DNA from: Bowmanella yangjiangensis
GTDB lineage: Bacteria; Pseudomonadota; Gammaproteobacteria; Enterobacterales; Alteromonadaceae
DNA: 64,000 nt
Reading direction: 5' to 3'
Assembly (NCBI RefSeq): GCF_017255015.1
Contig: NZ_JAFKCS010000014.1
Span: 1-64,000, forward strand
Position 1 is the first letter of the stretch; each line of letters opens with the position of its first letter. The position numbers and the translations under genes were made by a program. The notes under the pieces were generated by a model that saw nothing but the letters and a program-made list of their open reading frames with translations, was not told the DNA's origin and did not search any database. This document shows positions 41,490 to 47,795 of this stretch, piece after piece.

Positions 41490-42920
41490 GTGAGTTTGTT
41501 CCATTTGAATAGATATTACCGAGCCCGTTTGATGTGTTGGGCCGGGTTACTCCTTATCGCCATTAGCAGACCGCTGTTGGCAGACGAGGAGCTAAAACCG
41601 CTAAAAATGGACAGCCCCATTCAGCCGGATAGTCCTTACAGTCAGTTTGTTGGGGAACTGCTGGGGAATGCTTATGCTTCTCTTGGTTATCGTCTCGAGC
41701 TTGAGTCCATGCCCCTTGGGCGCAGCTTTATTGAGGCTGACGAAGGGCGCTTGGATGGCTTGCGAGACAGGGGGCAGAGCATAGGAGGCGTGTACCCAAA
41801 TCTGATTCAAGTGCCTTTCCCGCTCTACGATTTCAATTTGGTGTTGCTGGCTGACCGGCGTCGCTGCGGACTATGTGAACTGGGCGACCTTAATAGTCTG
41901 GTGACATTAAGGGGATTTCAGTTTCAGGAAGACTATTTCAATCGTCAGCCGGTGCATCCGCAAATCCTGAAACTAGGTGATACCAACGCGGTATTGGACA
42001 TGCTGAGGTTAAAGCGGGTGGATGCGGCAGTCATGACCGAATTGATTGTGCCGGCGAGCTTTTATCAAAGCTCAGCACATTGGATCCAATACCCACTGGA
42101 TAATGCTTCCATATTTCATTACTTACACGCAAAGCATGCTTCGCTGGCCAGAAAGCTGGCAAGCAAACTGGAAGAGATGGAGTTGACCGGTGAAGTGTGG
42201 CGGCTACGTCAGAAGTATGGGATCCCACCAATACATATCGCCCCCTCCCTAGGGCCAAGTAGCAAAGTGTCTGCGATATCGGGCAATTGGCAGGGCTACA
42301 CGGACACTCCACAATCGACATACTGGCGCATTTTAGCCGGGGTTTTTGCTGATCAGGCCGTGGAGCTGGAAACGCGGCAATCAAACTGGAAGCGGGCAAA
42401 ACAAGAGTTTATGGAAGGCCGCTTTGACATGCTGGTAGGGGCCTATGCCATTGAAGTCCCTGCGGATGCCCTTCGTTCCAATGTGCATATTGACTATGAG
42501 TATCCCGTGGTGGCTGTGGCGGCGGATGCTTCGCGCCTGACGGCCATGCTAGACGGGGGGAAACCAGGTAAGGCCTGCCATGTGCTGGGCTATGAGTTCG
42601 CCAGTTGGCTACCCGCCAATCTTGAGATTTATGAGGCCAGCAACCTGCTGGACTGCGTCAAGCTACTGCAAAGCCAGCGTGTGGATCTGCTGGTGGATTT
42701 TAGCTACAACTTAAGTGATGAGGAAAAGGCTATCTATGTGCAGCGTGAGATTAAAGAAGCCTTACCTTTGTTCGTGGTATTTCAAAATACCAGTCGTGGT
42801 CATTTACTAAGGAAAATTTTTGAGCAGAGTTTCCGGCAATTGGTTGCATCTGGCGCAGCAGCTGGTTACTTTCCTGACCAGGCGAGCTATCAACAGGCTC
42901 GTCTAACAAAATCCCCTTAA
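41490..42920 (+). CDS. Secreted protein with two tandem solute-binding (SBP_bac_3-like) lobes
   Basis: A 476-residue protein with a signal peptide (ends SRPLLADEE) and no later membrane helix. Two segments, about 40-250 and 265-465, each look like a family 3 periplasmic binding protein. The first has LELESMPLGRSFIEADEGRLDG and LRLKRVDAAVMTELIV; the second has ELETRQSNWKRAKQEFMEGRFDMLVGAY and LLQSQRVDLLVDFSY. The repeated 'many-charged loop plus G-R-x-D' pattern suggests duplication. No permease or ATPase gene is near, so it may be a sensor or scavenger rather than a transporter part. The start is uncertain: GTG 41490 has no ribosome site; ATG 41532 with GAG eight bases upstream is a good alternative. 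Confidence 0.78.
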   Translation: MSLFHLNRYYRARLMCWAGLLLIAISRPLLADEELKPLKMDSPIQPDSPYSQFVGELLGNAYASLGYRLELESMPLGRSFIEADEGRLDGLRDRGQSIGGVYPNLIQVPFPLYDFNLVLLADRRRCGLCELGDLNSLVTLRGFQFQEDYFNRQPVHPQILKLGDTNAVLDMLRLKRVDAAVMTELIVPASFYQSSAHWIQYPLDNASIFHYLHAKHASLARKLASKLEEMELTGEVWRLRQKYGIPPIHIAPSLGPSSKVSAISGNWQGYTDTPQSTYWRILAGVFADQAVELETRQSNWKRAKQEFMEGRFDMLVGAYAIEVPADALRSNVHIDYEYPVVAVAADASRLTAMLDGGKPGKACHVLGYEFASWLPANLEIYEASNLLDCVKLLQSQRVDLLVDFSYNLSDEEKAIYVQREIKEALPLFVVFQNTSRGHLLRKIFEQSFRQLVASGAAAGYFPDQASYQQARLTKSP

Positions 42921-43555: not shown

Positions 43556-43618
43556 GCCTGCTTCGCTTATTGTTGCTGACTTGATTCACTTTAAATAGTT
43601 TTCATTTGTTTATTGTTT

Positions 43619-43678
43619 GGGTTAATTTGAATTAATCCATTTTTTGTTTGTTAAAAATTTGTTTATTTAAAATATAAT
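43619..43678 (+). promoter_or_regulatory. Candidate operator and -10 box before the PLP-enzyme gene
   Basis: An AT-rich region upstream of 43721 holds the inverted repeat TTAATT-TG-AATTAA with flanking GG and CC (43619-43638) and a TATAAT box at 43673-43678. The -35 region is T-rich and weak, which would fit an activator-dependent promoter. Palindromes of this AT-centred type are typical Lrp/AsnC sites, and an Lrp/AsnC gene lies at 46030-46491; the link is inferred. Confidence 0.45.
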
Positions 43679-43720
43679 TCTGTTTAGGCTGGTTGCAATT
43701 CGTACCAATTAGGCAGATTT

Positions 43721-45505
43721 ATGTCAGATAATATTCAGCAAGCAAAGCAACTCTCTCCACGGCGCAATAGCTCACACGCAGAAACAGTGCAGGAGTTGGC
43801 ACAGGAACAATTACAGCACTTTGGTATTGATGCTACGTCGGACTATGGTCAGGCGCTCTATCAGGCGGCGTTGCATCTATACCAGACCCAGGGGGATGTT
43901 GCCCGCCTCTGGCAGGTCACCCAGAACACCCTGGAAGGACTTAGCCGGGAGGATAAGATTGCCCGTTTTAATGCCAAAAAATTTCTGTCATTCCAAATAG
44001 CTAAGGTATTAGATACCCTGCAAAATCCCTTTCGGGCAGTACATCAAAGTTTGCACCGTCAGCAAGGCTCGCAGCTGGCTCGCAATCACTATCCGCTGTT
44101 TGACAATGTCACGGCGCTGTTTTCAGCAACGCCGGTAGTGGTGCGCACTGCAACCTATGTTTATGCCTGCACCGAATGGGTGGATGATGCTTTTCAGGGC
44201 AAAGAAGCGACCCACCAGATTTATTCTCGCCTGTTAAATCCGACCGCTATTTCGTTGGCTAATGCCATTGTTGACTTGGAGGCCGGGCCTTATGCGGCTG
44301 AGTATCTGGCCTGGAATTTTAATTCCGGGATGGCGGCGATAGACGGCATGCTGTCCAACGTTCTGCGACATGGTGATGTGTTAGTGGTGTCGCGTAATAT
44401 TTATGGCGGCGTGTTTCAGTTACTGCATGACTACTTTGCCAGAGCAGACCGCCTGGCGATTCAGCTTGAGTGGTTTGACGGTTATCAGGCCGATGAATTT
44501 GCCGATTTTTTAGCGGGGGTTAAAGCTAGACACGCTGACCGTCTGGCGCAGGGCAAGAAGTTACACGTTTATTTGGAATCGCCTTGTAACCCCCACGGCT
44601 ATGTGTTGGACGTGCCGGGTATCTGCCGTCTTGCTCATCAGGGAAATCATCTGGTTATGCTGGATGCCACCCTGGCCACCCCGGTACTTAGTCAGCCACT
44701 GCAATGTGCTGACAAGGCTGAGCGACCGGATTATCTGGTACACAGCTACACCAAAGATATTTGTGGAAGCGGTGCCACCACAGCCGGGGTGGTGATAGGC
44801 GAGAATCACCGCATGTTCCAGGCCAAGGGCGATAAGGTTAATGGGGTGGATTGGTCACAAACCATGTTCTGGGATGTGTTTTACATAAAAGGCGCGTTTC
44901 TGGACTCCGAGAAAGCCTTTGATGTGCTTAACGGCATGAAAACCCTGGAGCAGCGCATGTTATCCAAGGTGATTAACACCCAGGTCTTTTGCCGCTTTTT
45001 GGCTTCTCACCCAGATTTTAGGGTGAATAGCCACGTGGTAGAAGGGCACCCTAATGCCGAGCTGCGTCGCAAGCTGATGCGTCATGGCTGGCCCTGTTCG
45101 CTGTTTACCGTGGATATGGAAGGTGCCAGTCTGGATAGACAGACCTTCGTGCGTTTTTTTGACTCCCTGGAGCCGGCTTTTAGTCATCAGGTATCTATTG
45201 GTCAGAACAACACTATTATTTTATGCCCGGCCCTGACGTCTCATTCTGAACTGGCCGAAGCTGACCAACATGCTGCCGGTATCTTTCTTACCACCATGCG
45301 GGTGGCGATGGGTACCGACAACGTTAAGGAGTTAATTGCCCAGTTTATCCAAAGTGCCAGATTGCATATTGATCCGTTAAGACCAGGCTTCAGTGAAAAA
45401 TTCATGTCGCCAGCCGACATCGATGCCTTGTATCAGCGTGTGGCTATTACCAGTGCCGAGCAGCACTATACGTCTGGCCCCAGTATGGCGGTGTTATTGG
45501 AATGA
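43721..45505 (+). CDS. Large PLP-dependent enzyme of the Cys/Met metabolism fold
   Basis: A 594-residue fold-type I PLP enzyme. Residues 1-100 are an extra helical region not found in ordinary cystathionine synthases/lyases. The catalytic part (about 110-560) has the aromatic-ring site region NFNSGMAAIDGMLSNVLRHGDVLVVSRNIYGG, ESPCNPHGYVLDV, the PLP Asp in LVMLDATLATPVLSQPL, and the Schiff-base lysine in VHSYTKDICGSGATTAG. Late on, GMKTLEQRM resembles the GLKTL..R segment of the family. The family usually has about 400 residues, so this is a long variant; beta/gamma-lyase, synthase or another activity on sulfur amino acids all fit. The SRPBCC gene follows without a gap and an Lrp-type gene lies convergently downstream. 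Confidence 0.82.
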   Translation: MSDNIQQAKQLSPRRNSSHAETVQELAQEQLQHFGIDATSDYGQALYQAALHLYQTQGDVARLWQVTQNTLEGLSREDKIARFNAKKFLSFQIAKVLDTLQNPFRAVHQSLHRQQGSQLARNHYPLFDNVTALFSATPVVVRTATYVYACTEWVDDAFQGKEATHQIYSRLLNPTAISLANAIVDLEAGPYAAEYLAWNFNSGMAAIDGMLSNVLRHGDVLVVSRNIYGGVFQLLHDYFARADRLAIQLEWFDGYQADEFADFLAGVKARHADRLAQGKKLHVYLESPCNPHGYVLDVPGICRLAHQGNHLVMLDATLATPVLSQPLQCADKAERPDYLVHSYTKDICGSGATTAGVVIGENHRMFQAKGDKVNGVDWSQTMFWDVFYIKGAFLDSEKAFDVLNGMKTLEQRMLSKVINTQVFCRFLASHPDFRVNSHVVEGHPNAELRRKLMRHGWPCSLFTVDMEGASLDRQTFVRFFDSLEPAFSHQVSIGQNNTIILCPALTSHSELAEADQHAAGIFLTTMRVAMGTDNVKELIAQFIQSARLHIDPLRPGFSEKFMSPADIDALYQRVAITSAEQHYTSGPSMAVLLE

Positions 45506-46000
45506 GTGCCGGATAAAAAGATTGCAGATAATGCCCTGTCTGCCGATGATAGGGCATTGCAGTTTGCTTATGGACAACCTATGTATCAATTCACCCTGAA
45601 TGTTAAGTTTGATGCGCCTCTGTCTCGTTTGTTTGATGCCTGGCACAAGCCAGAATTAATGCAGCAATGGTGGGCGCCGGGCGACATGTTAGTGGCTCAG
45701 CTTATGTCCAGCTTTCAGGAAGGAGGAAAGTTTCGTCTGGTGATGCAGGATACGGATTTTAATCAGCACATCGTGATGGGAGAGTACTTGCAAATTAAGG
45801 ACAACGAGAAACTGGTATTCAGTTGGCAGTGGCAGGGTAGTGAGCTGGTTACTGAAGTGAGTCTGGATTTTGCCAGTATCAACCAGCACACCTCTGAGCT
45901 AACTCTTACTCACAGTGGCTTTACCGATCAAGCGATGGCTGACGACCATCAGGCAGGTTGGATAGGTTGCCTGGAAAAATTGTCTCTGCTGACATTGTAA
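45506..46000 (+). CDS. SRPBCC (AHSA1-like) domain protein
   Basis: A protein of up to 164 residues. The domain starts at about residue 28 (FTLNVKFDAPLSRLFDAWHKPELMQQWWAPG) and ends ...ELTLTHSGF...HQAGWIGCLEKLSLL, the pattern of Aha1-like START-fold proteins that bind hydrophobic ligands. GTG 45506 directly abuts the TGA of the PLP gene and could be used by coupling; ATG 45581, at the start of the domain, is an alternative. Two further members of the family lie at 57.7 and 58.6 kb. Confidence 0.82.
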   Translation: MPDKKIADNALSADDRALQFAYGQPMYQFTLNVKFDAPLSRLFDAWHKPELMQQWWAPGDMLVAQLMSSFQEGGKFRLVMQDTDFNQHIVMGEYLQIKDNEKLVFSWQWQGSELVTEVSLDFASINQHTSELTLTHSGFTDQAMADDHQAGWIGCLEKLSLLTL

Positions 46001-46029
46001 AAGCGATTGGCTGGCATCACCTGCCTAAG

Positions 46030-46491
46030 TTAAAACTCTGGCAGGCTCTGGCTCTGGCAGTAATCGTAGACCAGTGCCGTTTCCACGTGGTTGACCTCGG
46101 CCCTGGCGGTAACCGCATTAAACACAAAGTCACGCAGATGGTGGGTATCCGATACCGTGACATGTACCAGAAAATCGTTTTCACCCCCCATATGATAAAG
46201 TCGCATGACTTCCGGCATAGGTAACAAGTCAGCCATAAAGGCATCTACGGTTTCACGGTTATGGTTTGATAGTCTTACTGCAATCATCGCTTGTATATGA
46301 CCGCCTAGTGCACTCATATTTAGCGTCAAGCTCGAGCCCTGAATAACCTGTTCAGCCTGCAAGCGTTTAACACGCTCCAAACAAGATGAGGGGGCTAACC
46401 CAACGCGACTGGCCAGTTCCTTGTTTGTCAGTCGCGCGTCCTTGTATAACAGCGCTAAAATCTGCAAATCCGTATTGTCTAGGGGGCGCAT
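46030..46491 (-). CDS. Lrp/AsnC family transcriptional regulator
   Basis: A 153-residue regulator: helix-turn-helix (about 4-60, LDNTDLQILALLYKDARLTNKELASRVGLAPSSCLERVKRL) and RAM ligand-binding domain (about 70-145, with GGENDFLVHVTV). Such proteins sense amino acids and form octamers. ATG 46491 is used because the TTG further upstream overlaps the M23 stop codon. It lies 17 bases after the M23 peptidase gene on the same strand and converges on the SRPBCC gene. A role in controlling the PLP enzyme is inferred from position. Confidence 0.92.
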   Translation of the reverse strand: MRPLDNTDLQILALLYKDARLTNKELASRVGLAPSSCLERVKRLQAEQVIQGSSLTLNMSALGGHIQAMIAVRLSNHNRETVDAFMADLLPMPEVMRLYHMGGENDFLVHVTVSDTHHLRDFVFNAVTARAEVNHVETALVYDYCQSQSLPEF

Positions 46492-46508
46492 AATAGGTGC
46501 CGGTGGCC

Positions 46509-47795
46509 TCAACGCATGGCCAGCATAATGCGGCGGTTGTTTTCCAAATGAGCCATATACTGTTCGGCCAGGGCCAGGAATTTGGTCTTGTCCTGTTTGG
46601 CAATCGGCTCGGCTTTGGGCAGTGTGACGGTACGAGGATTGCGGTGTACGCCATCAACTAAGAATTCATAGTGCAAGTGCGGCGCTTGTGACATACCAGT
46701 GGAGCCGACATAACCAATCACCTGACCTTGTTTAACGGTCTGGCCTTTTTTCACCGCACGTTTGGAGAAGTGCAGGTACTTGGTCATGTATTTTTCACCG
46801 TGCTGAACAAACACATAGTTGCCATTGTATTTGTTGTAAGCCGACGCGATAACCTTACCGTCACCCGCGGCGACCACCGGTGTACCAGTGTTGGCTCTAT
46901 AGTCAATGCCATTGTGTGGTTTCACCCGTTTTTGGATAGGGTGAAAACGCTTGGGATTGAAGTTGGAACTGATGTATTTAAAGTTTACCGGCGCCCGCAG
47001 GAAGCTCTTACGCATACTGCGTCCTTCTGGGGTGTAGTAATTGCCATCTTCGTAACGAATGGCCTGATACACTTCGCCTTGGTTGGTAAATTCTGCTGCC
47101 AGAATTTTGCCGTAGCCAATAAACTCGCCGTCGATAAACTCTTCTTCAAATACCAGATTAAAATTGTCGCCTTCACGCAATTCCAGCGCAAAGTCGATAT
47201 CCCAACCAAAGATATTGGCCAGGCTCATGATTTGGGCTTCAGACATACCGGCAGCGATACCGGCGTTCCAGAAACTGCTCTTGATGGTGCCGCTGGCATA
47301 ACCGAGGCGTACATCCACGTCTTTGTTTTCTATGCTACTGGTTAAGAGCCCTTGATCATCTGGTTGTATGAATAAGGTTTCGGTAGCTGAAATGTTGTAG
47401 CTTAGCGCTTGGAACTGTCCTTGTTCGTCAATAGCCAGTCTCAAGGTGTCGCCCGGCATCATTTTTAACAGGGTCTTGGCGTCTTTCCCTGCGTTGGACA
47501 CTTTATAGGTATCTTGAGGGCTCAATCCGGCACGGGAAAAAATCTTGGCGAGGTTATCTCCACGCTCAACGTTGAACTTTTTCCATTGAAAACGATTTTC
47601 ACTAACATGCAGAGATGGAAGCTCATCCACGGTTAACTGCAACGGATAGCGTTTACCCAGTTCCAGCTCTTCAGTCTGACGTGACGCAGTGGCGGGCTCA
47701 GACGGCAAGACAAATGCCAAAAAAGCCATAAGGCCTAAACCTGCAATCATCCACTTATGTGGTTTGGGTAGTTGTTTTAAGGTTTGCTTTACCAC
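46509..47795 (-). CDS. M23 peptidoglycan DD-endopeptidase (MepM-like)
   Basis: A 428-residue envelope protein: N-terminal membrane anchor/signal (about 15-32), an OapA/LysM-like region (about 65-130, [20 protein letters not shown]), a helical linker and the LytM/M23 domain (about 285-400) with the zinc ligands in PHNGIDYRA (H and D) and PHLHYEF (second H). All ligands are present, so it should cut D-Ala-mDAP cross-links during cell growth. The start is GTG 47795 with AGAGG eight bases upstream. It is divergent from tyrS, a common order in this group. Confidence 0.92.

Follow-up and report, generated by a model that had tools for sequence, protein, structure and literature searches.

What reaction is catalysed by a Cys/Met-family PLP enzyme that is far longer than its usual relatives, and how might the expression of its gene be controlled? 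The question is raised by a locus within 64,000 nucleotides of Bowmanella yangjiangensis DNA (the window), where the gene for such an enzyme (43721–45505, forward strand, 594 residues; defined by ORF list, PF01053 match and alignments) is followed by one for an SRPBCC/AHSA1-family protein (45581–46000, forward strand, 139 residues) and by a gene for an Lrp/AsnC regulator on the reverse strand (46030–46491, 153 residues from the likely ATG; ORF as listed 46030–46512). As a whole, our reading, to which we give slightly less than an even chance, is that of a local amino-acid-responsive module, in which a dedicated Lrp-type regulator would act through paired boxes on a long PLP enzyme performing a γ-elimination.

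The long PLP enzyme and its subfamily

The initial annotation had put the enzyme at about 200 residues beyond the usual Cys/Met PLP enzymes, which holds (594 residues versus roughly 400 in solved relatives), and had explained the extra length by an N-terminal helical addition of about 100; the N-terminus is indeed helical and conserved, but the actual split is about 115–130 residues at the N-terminus and about 45 at the C-terminus. PF01053 spans residues 136–544 (E 3.4e-57, 194.2 bits versus a cut-off of 27), and the added parts on both sides depart from the norm of that family, about 400 residues without an extra domain. The enzyme is a Cys/Met-family protein of fold type I, extended at its N-terminus by a conserved helical domain. 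This domain (codons 1–115, 43721–44065, forward strand) is conserved in the subfamily and, when residues 1–125 were folded alone with AlphaFold2, gave a mean pLDDT of 88.5; it had no PDB match at E ≤ 0.001, and a Pfam search with 36 members gave no more than weak matches to assorted unrelated families (best E 0.0049; member 1 had 15.5 bits versus a cut-off of 22.5). The C-terminal extension beyond the classical fold (codons 550–594, 45368–45502, forward strand) is delimited by the Pfam span, alignments and structure comparison, the VIA-align rows of the latter being limited to residues 141–551 of the whole enzyme model.

Four residues, K345, D315, Y228 and R527, are invariant in 38 alignment rows and align with their counterparts in Pseudomonas putida methionine γ-lyase; we take them to be the PLP lysine, in a Ser-x-Thr-Lys motif, and the matching Asp, Tyr and Arg. 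The predicted PLP lysine (44753–44755, forward strand, in HSYTK) is invariant in both alignments, A1 and A2. A further segment (codons 129–175, 44105–44245, forward strand) is strongly conserved, although modelled with low confidence in the monomer, and contains the invariant Y168 and R170; it aligns with the segment by which classical enzymes reach the PLP of the neighbouring subunit. The active-site cysteine of methionine γ-lyase, C116 in the P. putida enzyme, is absent in the alignment with that protein, YGG replacing YGC (G230).

The enzyme is one of a long, as yet uncharacterised subfamily, in which the Cys/Met core is preceded by about 115 conserved helical residues and followed by a tail of about 45; members were found in Alteromonadaceae and other gammaproteobacteria, as well as in Planctomycetes, Opitutaceae and Sulfidibacter. 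The enzyme of the window stays below the cut-off for each of the best 25 NCBIfam matches listed. The best of these is TIGR01326 (O-acetylhomoserine sulfhydrylase/MetY; 168.5 bits, cut-off 495.1), the family with which it shares the core fold and from which it differs by the extra N-terminal domain; nor are the cut-offs reached for methionine γ-lyase (TIGR01328; 166.2 versus 549.7) or for TIGR02080 and TIGR01325 (cystathionine γ-synthase/O-succinylhomoserine sulfhydrylase; 127.4 versus 504.55 and 151 versus 510.05). In a quick tree, 17 long forms are set apart by a single branch (SH-aLRT 100) and lie outside the MetY branch; the tree holds one wrong row (L204, judged by its branch of 10), lacks a characterised methionine γ-lyase and fungal sequences, and shows no more than this split. 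Among the known enzymes sampled there, the enzyme groups with none. With the findings below, a subfamily recognised so far by its core domain only acquires a testable candidate regulator, an exact candidate operator and a few possible substrates.

Association with an Lrp/AsnC regulator

The converging Lrp/AsnC gene was correctly recognized: its product carries an AsnC-type HTH (PF13404, 57.6 bits versus 27) and the AsnC_trans_reg ligand domain (PF01037, 49.5 versus 25). The start of this gene adjoins the end of a same-strand upstream gene, by eye an M23 peptidase. Across the loci compared, five arrangements place an Lrp-type gene next to that of the enzyme: downstream and convergent (the window and its relatives), downstream on the same strand (L088), upstream on the same strand (L091/L109), divergent with kbl-tdh after the enzyme (L129–L131), and divergent in another family (L148–L151).

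Among 59 genomes, a window-type Lrp (at least 54% identity) is present in 12 of 16 that are enzyme-positive and in none of the 43 that are enzyme-negative, 12 of the latter containing a relative of 46–51% identity; the thresholds were chosen after the data had been seen, and 47% (L093) and 53% (L088) were counted as Lrp-positive. In four of the 12 positive genomes (G008, G022, G034, G037) the regulator gene is unlinked, lying either 75 kb away or on a different contig. Genomes of relatives do not count as separate observations: on the enzyme tree, Lrp presence changes independently just three times. Of these three changes, the box score (see below) goes along with 2.8 on average and the 31-bp partner with 1.5, never reversed and neither significant. 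Fisher and Mann-Whitney values disregard relatedness. The Alteromonas genomes tested, apparently without the regulator, offer a natural comparison.

With considerable confidence, we regard the product of 46030–46491 as probably dedicated to the long PLP enzyme, the association coming from genome comparison and the binding being predicted from the boxes described in the following. The amino-acid-responsive Lrp/AsnC control proposed in the initial annotation is well supported by comparative genomics, but the operator differs from the one it had named.

A candidate operator of paired boxes

The conserved candidate operator has the consensus GAATWWWATTC and usually occurs in two copies exactly 31 bp, that is, three helical turns, apart. 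A perfect box (11/11) is found in 18 of 68 upstream regions, where shuffles predict 0.1. A second box exactly 31 bp away occurs in 21 of 33 Lrp-positive upstream regions (22 placements, as L046 has partners on both sides); any other offset between 8 and 40 bp has 0 or 1 placements, and none of 200 shuffles has more than 3. L038, outside the set of 33, is also paired (10/11 and 9/11), and none of 13 Lrp-negative loci has such a pair. When the tandem pattern was searched in 26 whole genomes with at most one mismatch, it was found in 14 places, 10 of them at the enzyme promoter, including all five exact ones; a reversed control gave three places. At this stringency, 16 of the 26 genomes have no match at the enzyme promoter. 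A broad regulon was considered and rejected, the single-box pattern giving 37 matches in 11 genomes, close to the level of the reversed control; the enzyme promoter is the only recurring intergenic target among the 30 of these matches whose loci were examined.

In the window, there is a single good box, AAATATAATTC (43670–43680), with 10 of 11 consensus positions, the proposed site of an Lrp dimer. The position of its partner, 31 bp upstream (43639–43649), has decayed to 6/11, versus 9/11 in B. pacifica; the three kbl-tdh genomes and L093 likewise have one box, the partner being absent. With one mismatch allowed, the window holds seven boxes versus a shuffle mean of 3.44, and since 4 of 100 shuffles reach seven, a lone box proves nothing. 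The TATAAT noted in the initial annotation exists (43673–43678) and may be a −10 hexamer, but it sits inside AAATATAATTC, itself the element conserved across species. Lrp dimers would bind such palindromic boxes, ideally two copies on one face of the DNA; since the box covers the possible −10 element, the simplest mode of control would be repression that the amino-acid substrate lifts, or else activation by that substrate. The strict 31-bp pairing could make the system a clean model for how a local Lrp-type protein reads a promoter.

The operator originally suggested, TTAATT-TG-AATTAA, is present (43622–43635), but was rejected: the window alone has it among 82 upstream regions scored, and it is probably due to chance, a perfect 6+6 inverted repeat with a spacer of 0–8 arising in 49% of 1000 Markov shuffles of the intergenic stretch (8.5% with a spacer of exactly 2). 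A search of the window and five loci for known RNA elements, run with gathering thresholds, detected none near the enzyme gene; its two matches lay elsewhere, a tRNA and a small SRP RNA in L093 and L091.

Candidate reactions

The enzyme may eliminate at the γ-carbon of a homoserine-, methionine- or threonine-type amino acid and so produce a 2-oxo acid such as 2-oxobutyrate, a reaction that we put forward tentatively. A divergent D-2-hydroxyacid dehydrogenase, encoded at 44 of 80 loci, could reduce this product in many relatives. Elimination is favoured because of this dehydrogenase, because kbl and tdh lie directly downstream of the enzyme gene (three genomes, one genus), because no MetJ box was found at any of seven long genes and because G000 additionally encodes a MetY-type enzyme; the neighbours (kbl-tdh, dehydrogenase, and thrB and thrC in L093), taken with Lrp control, make us lean towards amino-acid breakdown. 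A sulfur substrate is possible; some neighbourhoods suggest threonine/homoserine metabolism. The missing methionine γ-lyase cysteine (G230) speaks against elimination. In Planctomycetes and Opitutaceae, where gene calling was crude, no consistent partner was seen by eye. The effector of the regulator should reveal the substrate, a direct route to function.

Homocysteine synthesis is a close rival to breakdown. The enzyme could be, with a probability we put on a par with that of γ-elimination, the bacterial counterpart of yeast Yll058w/Str2, making homocysteine or cystathionine from activated homoserine by γ-replacement, in an active site altered by the extra region. Yll058w (Hsu1) and Str2 are, by their descriptions, likewise Cys/Met-family PLP enzymes, and, according to PMC9763685, Yll058w contains about 180 residues that have no homology to MetY or Met15 and acts weakly as an O-acetylhomoserine sulfhydrylase; four bacterial homologues served there as outgroups. 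Solved-structure matches of our enzyme fit this in that they include O-acetylhomoserine sulfhydrylases and γ-synthases, and also methionine γ-lyases. Further in its favour, five genomes listed as 100% complete (G004, G008, G015, G022, G027) have, besides the long form, a single other PF01053 protein at E ≤ 1e-20. It is PRK05939-like in the four genomes where it was scanned, all but G004: it is over the cut-off in G027, and the shortened ORFs of G008, G015 and G022 score 513–545 bits versus 555. The position of the L093 gene next to thrB and thrC also counts in favour. Against γ-replacement stand the MetY-type enzyme of G000, control that is of Lrp type rather than of methionine-biosynthesis type, and the segment for subunit exchange, kept here, whereas Yll058w is described as a likely monomer that completes its active site by folding back, its catalytic lysine being K376 in place of K345 (PMC9763685). 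MetJ control of the enzyme was rejected, as none of seven long genes has a box; this argues weakly, as the MetY genes of G000 and G054 and the PRK05939 gene of G015 also lack one, only metB of G034 having a box (14/16). The scan gave a row for 11 of 16 named regions and none for five PRK05939 genes.

An unlikely alternative to γ-elimination is a place in threonine/homoserine metabolism proper, for example elimination from or replacement on homoserine or O-phosphohomoserine, leading to threonine, glycine or isoleucine. Beyond the kbl-tdh genomes already named, tdh-kbl lies about 2.8 kb from the enzyme gene in one more genome (G110), which belongs to another family, and in L093 an aspartokinase-like gene flanks it together with thrB and thrC; but such contexts are few, kbl being found at 4 and thrB and thrC at 1 of 86 loci searched (80 named plus L126–L131).

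A more novel reading, which we consider less likely than not, is that the long forms are a multi-phylum subfamily defined by a new helical domain at the N-terminus, with a reaction that their roughly 400-residue cousins do not catalyse; in gammaproteobacteria, such an enzyme would be all or most of what its own Lrp-type regulator controls via the tandem 31-bp operator.

Comparison with known local regulators

Among the closest known systems are MdeR and mdeA, the latter encoding methionine γ-lyase, where a local Lrp/AsnC regulator also stands beside its PLP-enzyme target; the present enzyme exceeds that lyase by about 200 residues and has lost its cysteine, and the regulator gene may be convergent or unlinked. 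MdeR of P. putida is divergently transcribed from its target and affected by L-methionine, according to PMC8707732. Ss-LrpB, BarR and other local Lrp-type regulators likewise use repeated semi-palindromic boxes on whole helical turns; that group is archaeal, and the box sequence and target found here do not appear in the passages describing them (PMC2995911, PMC10201364). The former records Lrp-family sites two or three helical turns apart, a trait that, at the level of sequence, is matched by the 31-bp pairs in Lrp-positive regions, the window having one good box.

That the regulator is linked to the enzyme by background synteny, the boxes being promoter elements, is very improbable: in Alteromonadaceae the Lrp gene often lies within a conserved block with anmK, an M23 peptidase gene and tyrS (genes read by eye) and the box is able to overlap a −10 element, but the differing arrangements in distant families, the exact pairing, its absence from all 13 Lrp-negative loci and the genome-wide target specificity speak against it.

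The SRPBCC gene

A role of the SRPBCC protein in the module is one that we infer, and the analysis gave no support to the volatile ligand once suggested for it. Conserved co-occurrence of all three genes also failed to appear: whereas the presence of Lrp follows that of the enzyme, an SRPBCC gene was found at 33 of 80 loci, all in Alteromonadaceae. The family assignment itself is sound (PF08327, 78.9 bits versus 22.1). The start on the base after the enzyme stop codon had to be given up, the GTG at 45506 being merely mechanical; the real start is the ATG at 45581, 75 bases past that stop, because an in-frame stop lies between GTG and ATG in B. pacifica (L037) and because 24 of 33 homologous matches start at query residue 23 or 26.

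The long-form enzyme

The long PLP enzyme is encoded at 43721-45505 (594 aa), and the Pfam domain Cys_Met_Meta_PP spans its residues 136-544; by sequence comparison, it belongs to the Cys/Met family and its active-site residues are conserved. None of the best 25 of 44 NCBIfam models matched reaches its cut-off, the top score being that of TIGR01326 (168.5 bits vs 495.1). In an alignment of 38 rows, 51-94% identical to the window's enzyme, invariant residues are found throughout the protein, those near the N-terminus including Q30, H33, G43, F83, F88, F91, Q92, and K95. AlphaFold2 predicts a fold-type-I core, matched about equally by many Cys/Met enzymes (Foldseek and VIA-align), and a confident N-terminal helical domain at residues 2-115 (mean pLDDT 88.5 when residues 1-125 are folded alone); with this domain alone, nothing was found in the PDB at E<=0.001, nor any convincing family in Pfam. 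The stretch 114-172 is of low AlphaFold2 confidence and high conservation, and aligns over the YSR segment (Y59 and R61) of Pseudomonas putida methionine gamma-lyase, which reaches the neighbouring subunit. The active-site cysteine of that lyase is replaced by glycine in the same alignment. A quick tree of 50 rows, which includes one wrong row (L204) and is drawn without characterised methionine gamma-lyase and fungal sequences, has a branch, supported at 100, that separates the 17 long forms from the other rows; their stem is 3.3 changes per column long.

The window's genome (5.4 Mb) has Bowmanella species as nearest named relatives, with enzyme identities of 94% (B. pacifica), 89% (B. denitrificans), and 81% (B. 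dokdonensis). The long form was found in 16 of 59 genomes, the window's own counted; at E<=1e-110, overlapping draws from the class and the phylum gave it in 9 of 369 genomes, where one of the nine is a fragment at the end of a contig, and in 10 of 398, respectively. A relative is encoded in 88 genomes of the named collection; the 80 loci kept include Alteromonadaceae, Planctomycetes (mostly Phycisphaerae), Opitutaceae, Sulfidibacter, and others.

Neighbouring genes and the regulator

The SRPBCC gene (Pfam AHSA1) downstream of the enzyme gene had first been placed on the base after the enzyme stop; its start is to be revised to the ATG at 45581, because in B. pacifica an in-frame stop precedes that ATG and 24 of 33 matches align only from query residue 23 or 26 onwards. 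Among the 80 named loci, SRPBCC matches are present in 33 (30 when counted by clustering), all of Alteromonadaceae. A D-2-hydroxyacid dehydrogenase gene is divergent from the enzyme gene in 44 of 80 named loci, sharing its intergenic region (L064:4937-5902 and 43 other loci); the window's genome holds a single partial match (31%, E 2.6e-11). At 41490-42920, before a GST gene, the window encodes a 476-aa protein of weak similarity to solute-binding proteins, matched in just 4 of 80 loci.

Converging on the enzyme and SRPBCC genes is an Lrp/AsnC gene (Pfam AsnC HTH and ligand domain). Among 59 genomes, a regulator at least 54% identical to it is present in 12 of 16 enzyme-positive vs 0 of 43 enzyme-negative ones; 12 enzyme-negative genomes have a relative at 46-51%, several of these adjoining a gene read by eye as nhaA. 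In 28 further enzyme-positive genomes, Lrp is found at 47-68% identity in 12, and nothing above 38% in 16. Matches are present in 20 of the 80 named loci, 18 at 53-96% identity and two (L091 and L109) at 31%. The arrangement varies: the Lrp gene lies on the enzyme's strand downstream (L088) or upstream (L091, L109), or is divergent, as in L148-L151 from another family of the order (30% identical in G054). In three genomes of one genus (L129:8253-12816, L130:6585-11230, L131:8275-12906) kbl and tdh come immediately after the enzyme gene and the Lrp gene is divergent, its product sharing 40-50% identity with the Lrp proteins of Alteromonadaceae and L088; kbl and tdh of L130 are equivalog matches over the cut-off, and the copies in L129 and L131 are 81-91% identical. 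In G047, a genome without the long form, a gene for an Lrp with 51% identity to that of the window is transcribed divergently from the gene of an ordinary Cys/Met enzyme of 397 aa (L191:1495-3246), which is nearest to methionine gamma-lyase, below the cut-off (360 vs 549.7 bits). A small SRP RNA gene lies just 3′ of the enzyme gene at L091:7892-7988.

A tandem candidate operator

The palindrome GAATWWWATTC recurs in the upstream regions, and comparison shows an association of regulator, operator, and enzyme. A perfect box is present in 18 of 68 upstream regions vs 0.1 expected from shuffles, and a 10/11 box in 12 more vs 2.3 expected, relatedness of the genomes not being allowed for in either count. 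In 33 regions with an Lrp relative, a second box (at least 9/11) was sought 8-40 bp from the highest-scoring one: 21 regions have it at exactly 31 bp, and L046, with a partner on either side, brings the placements to 22; every other offset gave 0 or 1 placements, and the maximum in 200 shuffles was 3. The B. denitrificans locus (L038), left out of this set as no start was found for it, carries boxes of 10/11 and 9/11 at the same 31 bp. For Lrp-type proteins, sites set three helical turns apart have been recorded (PMC2995911).

Among the named loci, the partner box is found in 20 of 28 with the regulator vs 0 of 13 without. The enzyme tree holds just three independent changes of Lrp presence; on average, 2.8 of them are accompanied by a change of box score in the same direction and 1.5 by one of the partner, never in the opposite direction, numbers that cannot reach significance. 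In 26 whole genomes, with one mismatch allowed, the tandem pattern occurs at 14 places (reversed-pattern control, 3); assigned by coordinates and sequence letters, ten lie at the enzyme promoter in ten genomes, all five exact matches included, and four elsewhere, while 16 of the 26 genomes, the window's own included, have no such match at the enzyme promoter. A single box with its flank gives 37 matches in 11 genomes, near the control level; among 30 examined, the enzyme promoter is the sole recurring intergenic site.

The remaining box of the window (43670-43680, 10/11) overlaps a possible -10 hexamer. Its partner has decayed to 6/11, so that, with one box left, regulation may be weaker here than in relatives. 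In L148-L151, a different palindrome, GCAATATTATTGC, lies between the long enzyme gene and the different divergent Lrp gene in 4 of 4 genomes; L151 carries a GAATTATATTC box besides GCAATATTATTGC.

Possible function

Among the matches listed for titles and abstracts of the open literature, there was no paper on the bacterial long form or its operator. We infer the reaction of the enzyme from several pointers. Lrp-type control, the kbl-tdh operon of one genus, and the divergent dehydrogenase suggest a role in catabolism or otherwise outside biosynthesis. Weakly in the same direction points the absence of a MetJ box at 7 of 7 long genes, the metB of G034 having one of 14/16 and three conventional genes also being without.

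Homoserine chemistry is pointed to by the general gamma-chemistry of the family and by a metagenome bin titled Aeromonadales (L093:2768-8825), where the long enzyme gene lies between aspartokinase-like and threonine synthase genes (minus strand) and a homoserine kinase gene (plus strand); thrB and thrC are both over the cut-off, and thrB is beside the enzyme gene.

Methionine biosynthesis is pointed to by the precedent of yeast Yll058w (PMC9763685; PMC9757880) and by genomes with just one other PF01053 enzyme; bacterial homologues of Yll058w, possibly of this family, are mentioned (PMC9763685). In these orders, according to PMC3228920, the route through MetA, MetB, and MetC seems ancestral, and Alteromonas has a MetX homologue that lacks metboxes. 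The window's genome has, at E<=1e-20, PF01053 enzymes of the MetY and PRK05939 types, each over a cut-off; just one besides the long form is found in 6 of 26 genomes (G004, G008, G015, G022, G027, G034), PRK05939-like in G008, G015, G022, and G027 and of the MetB type in G034.
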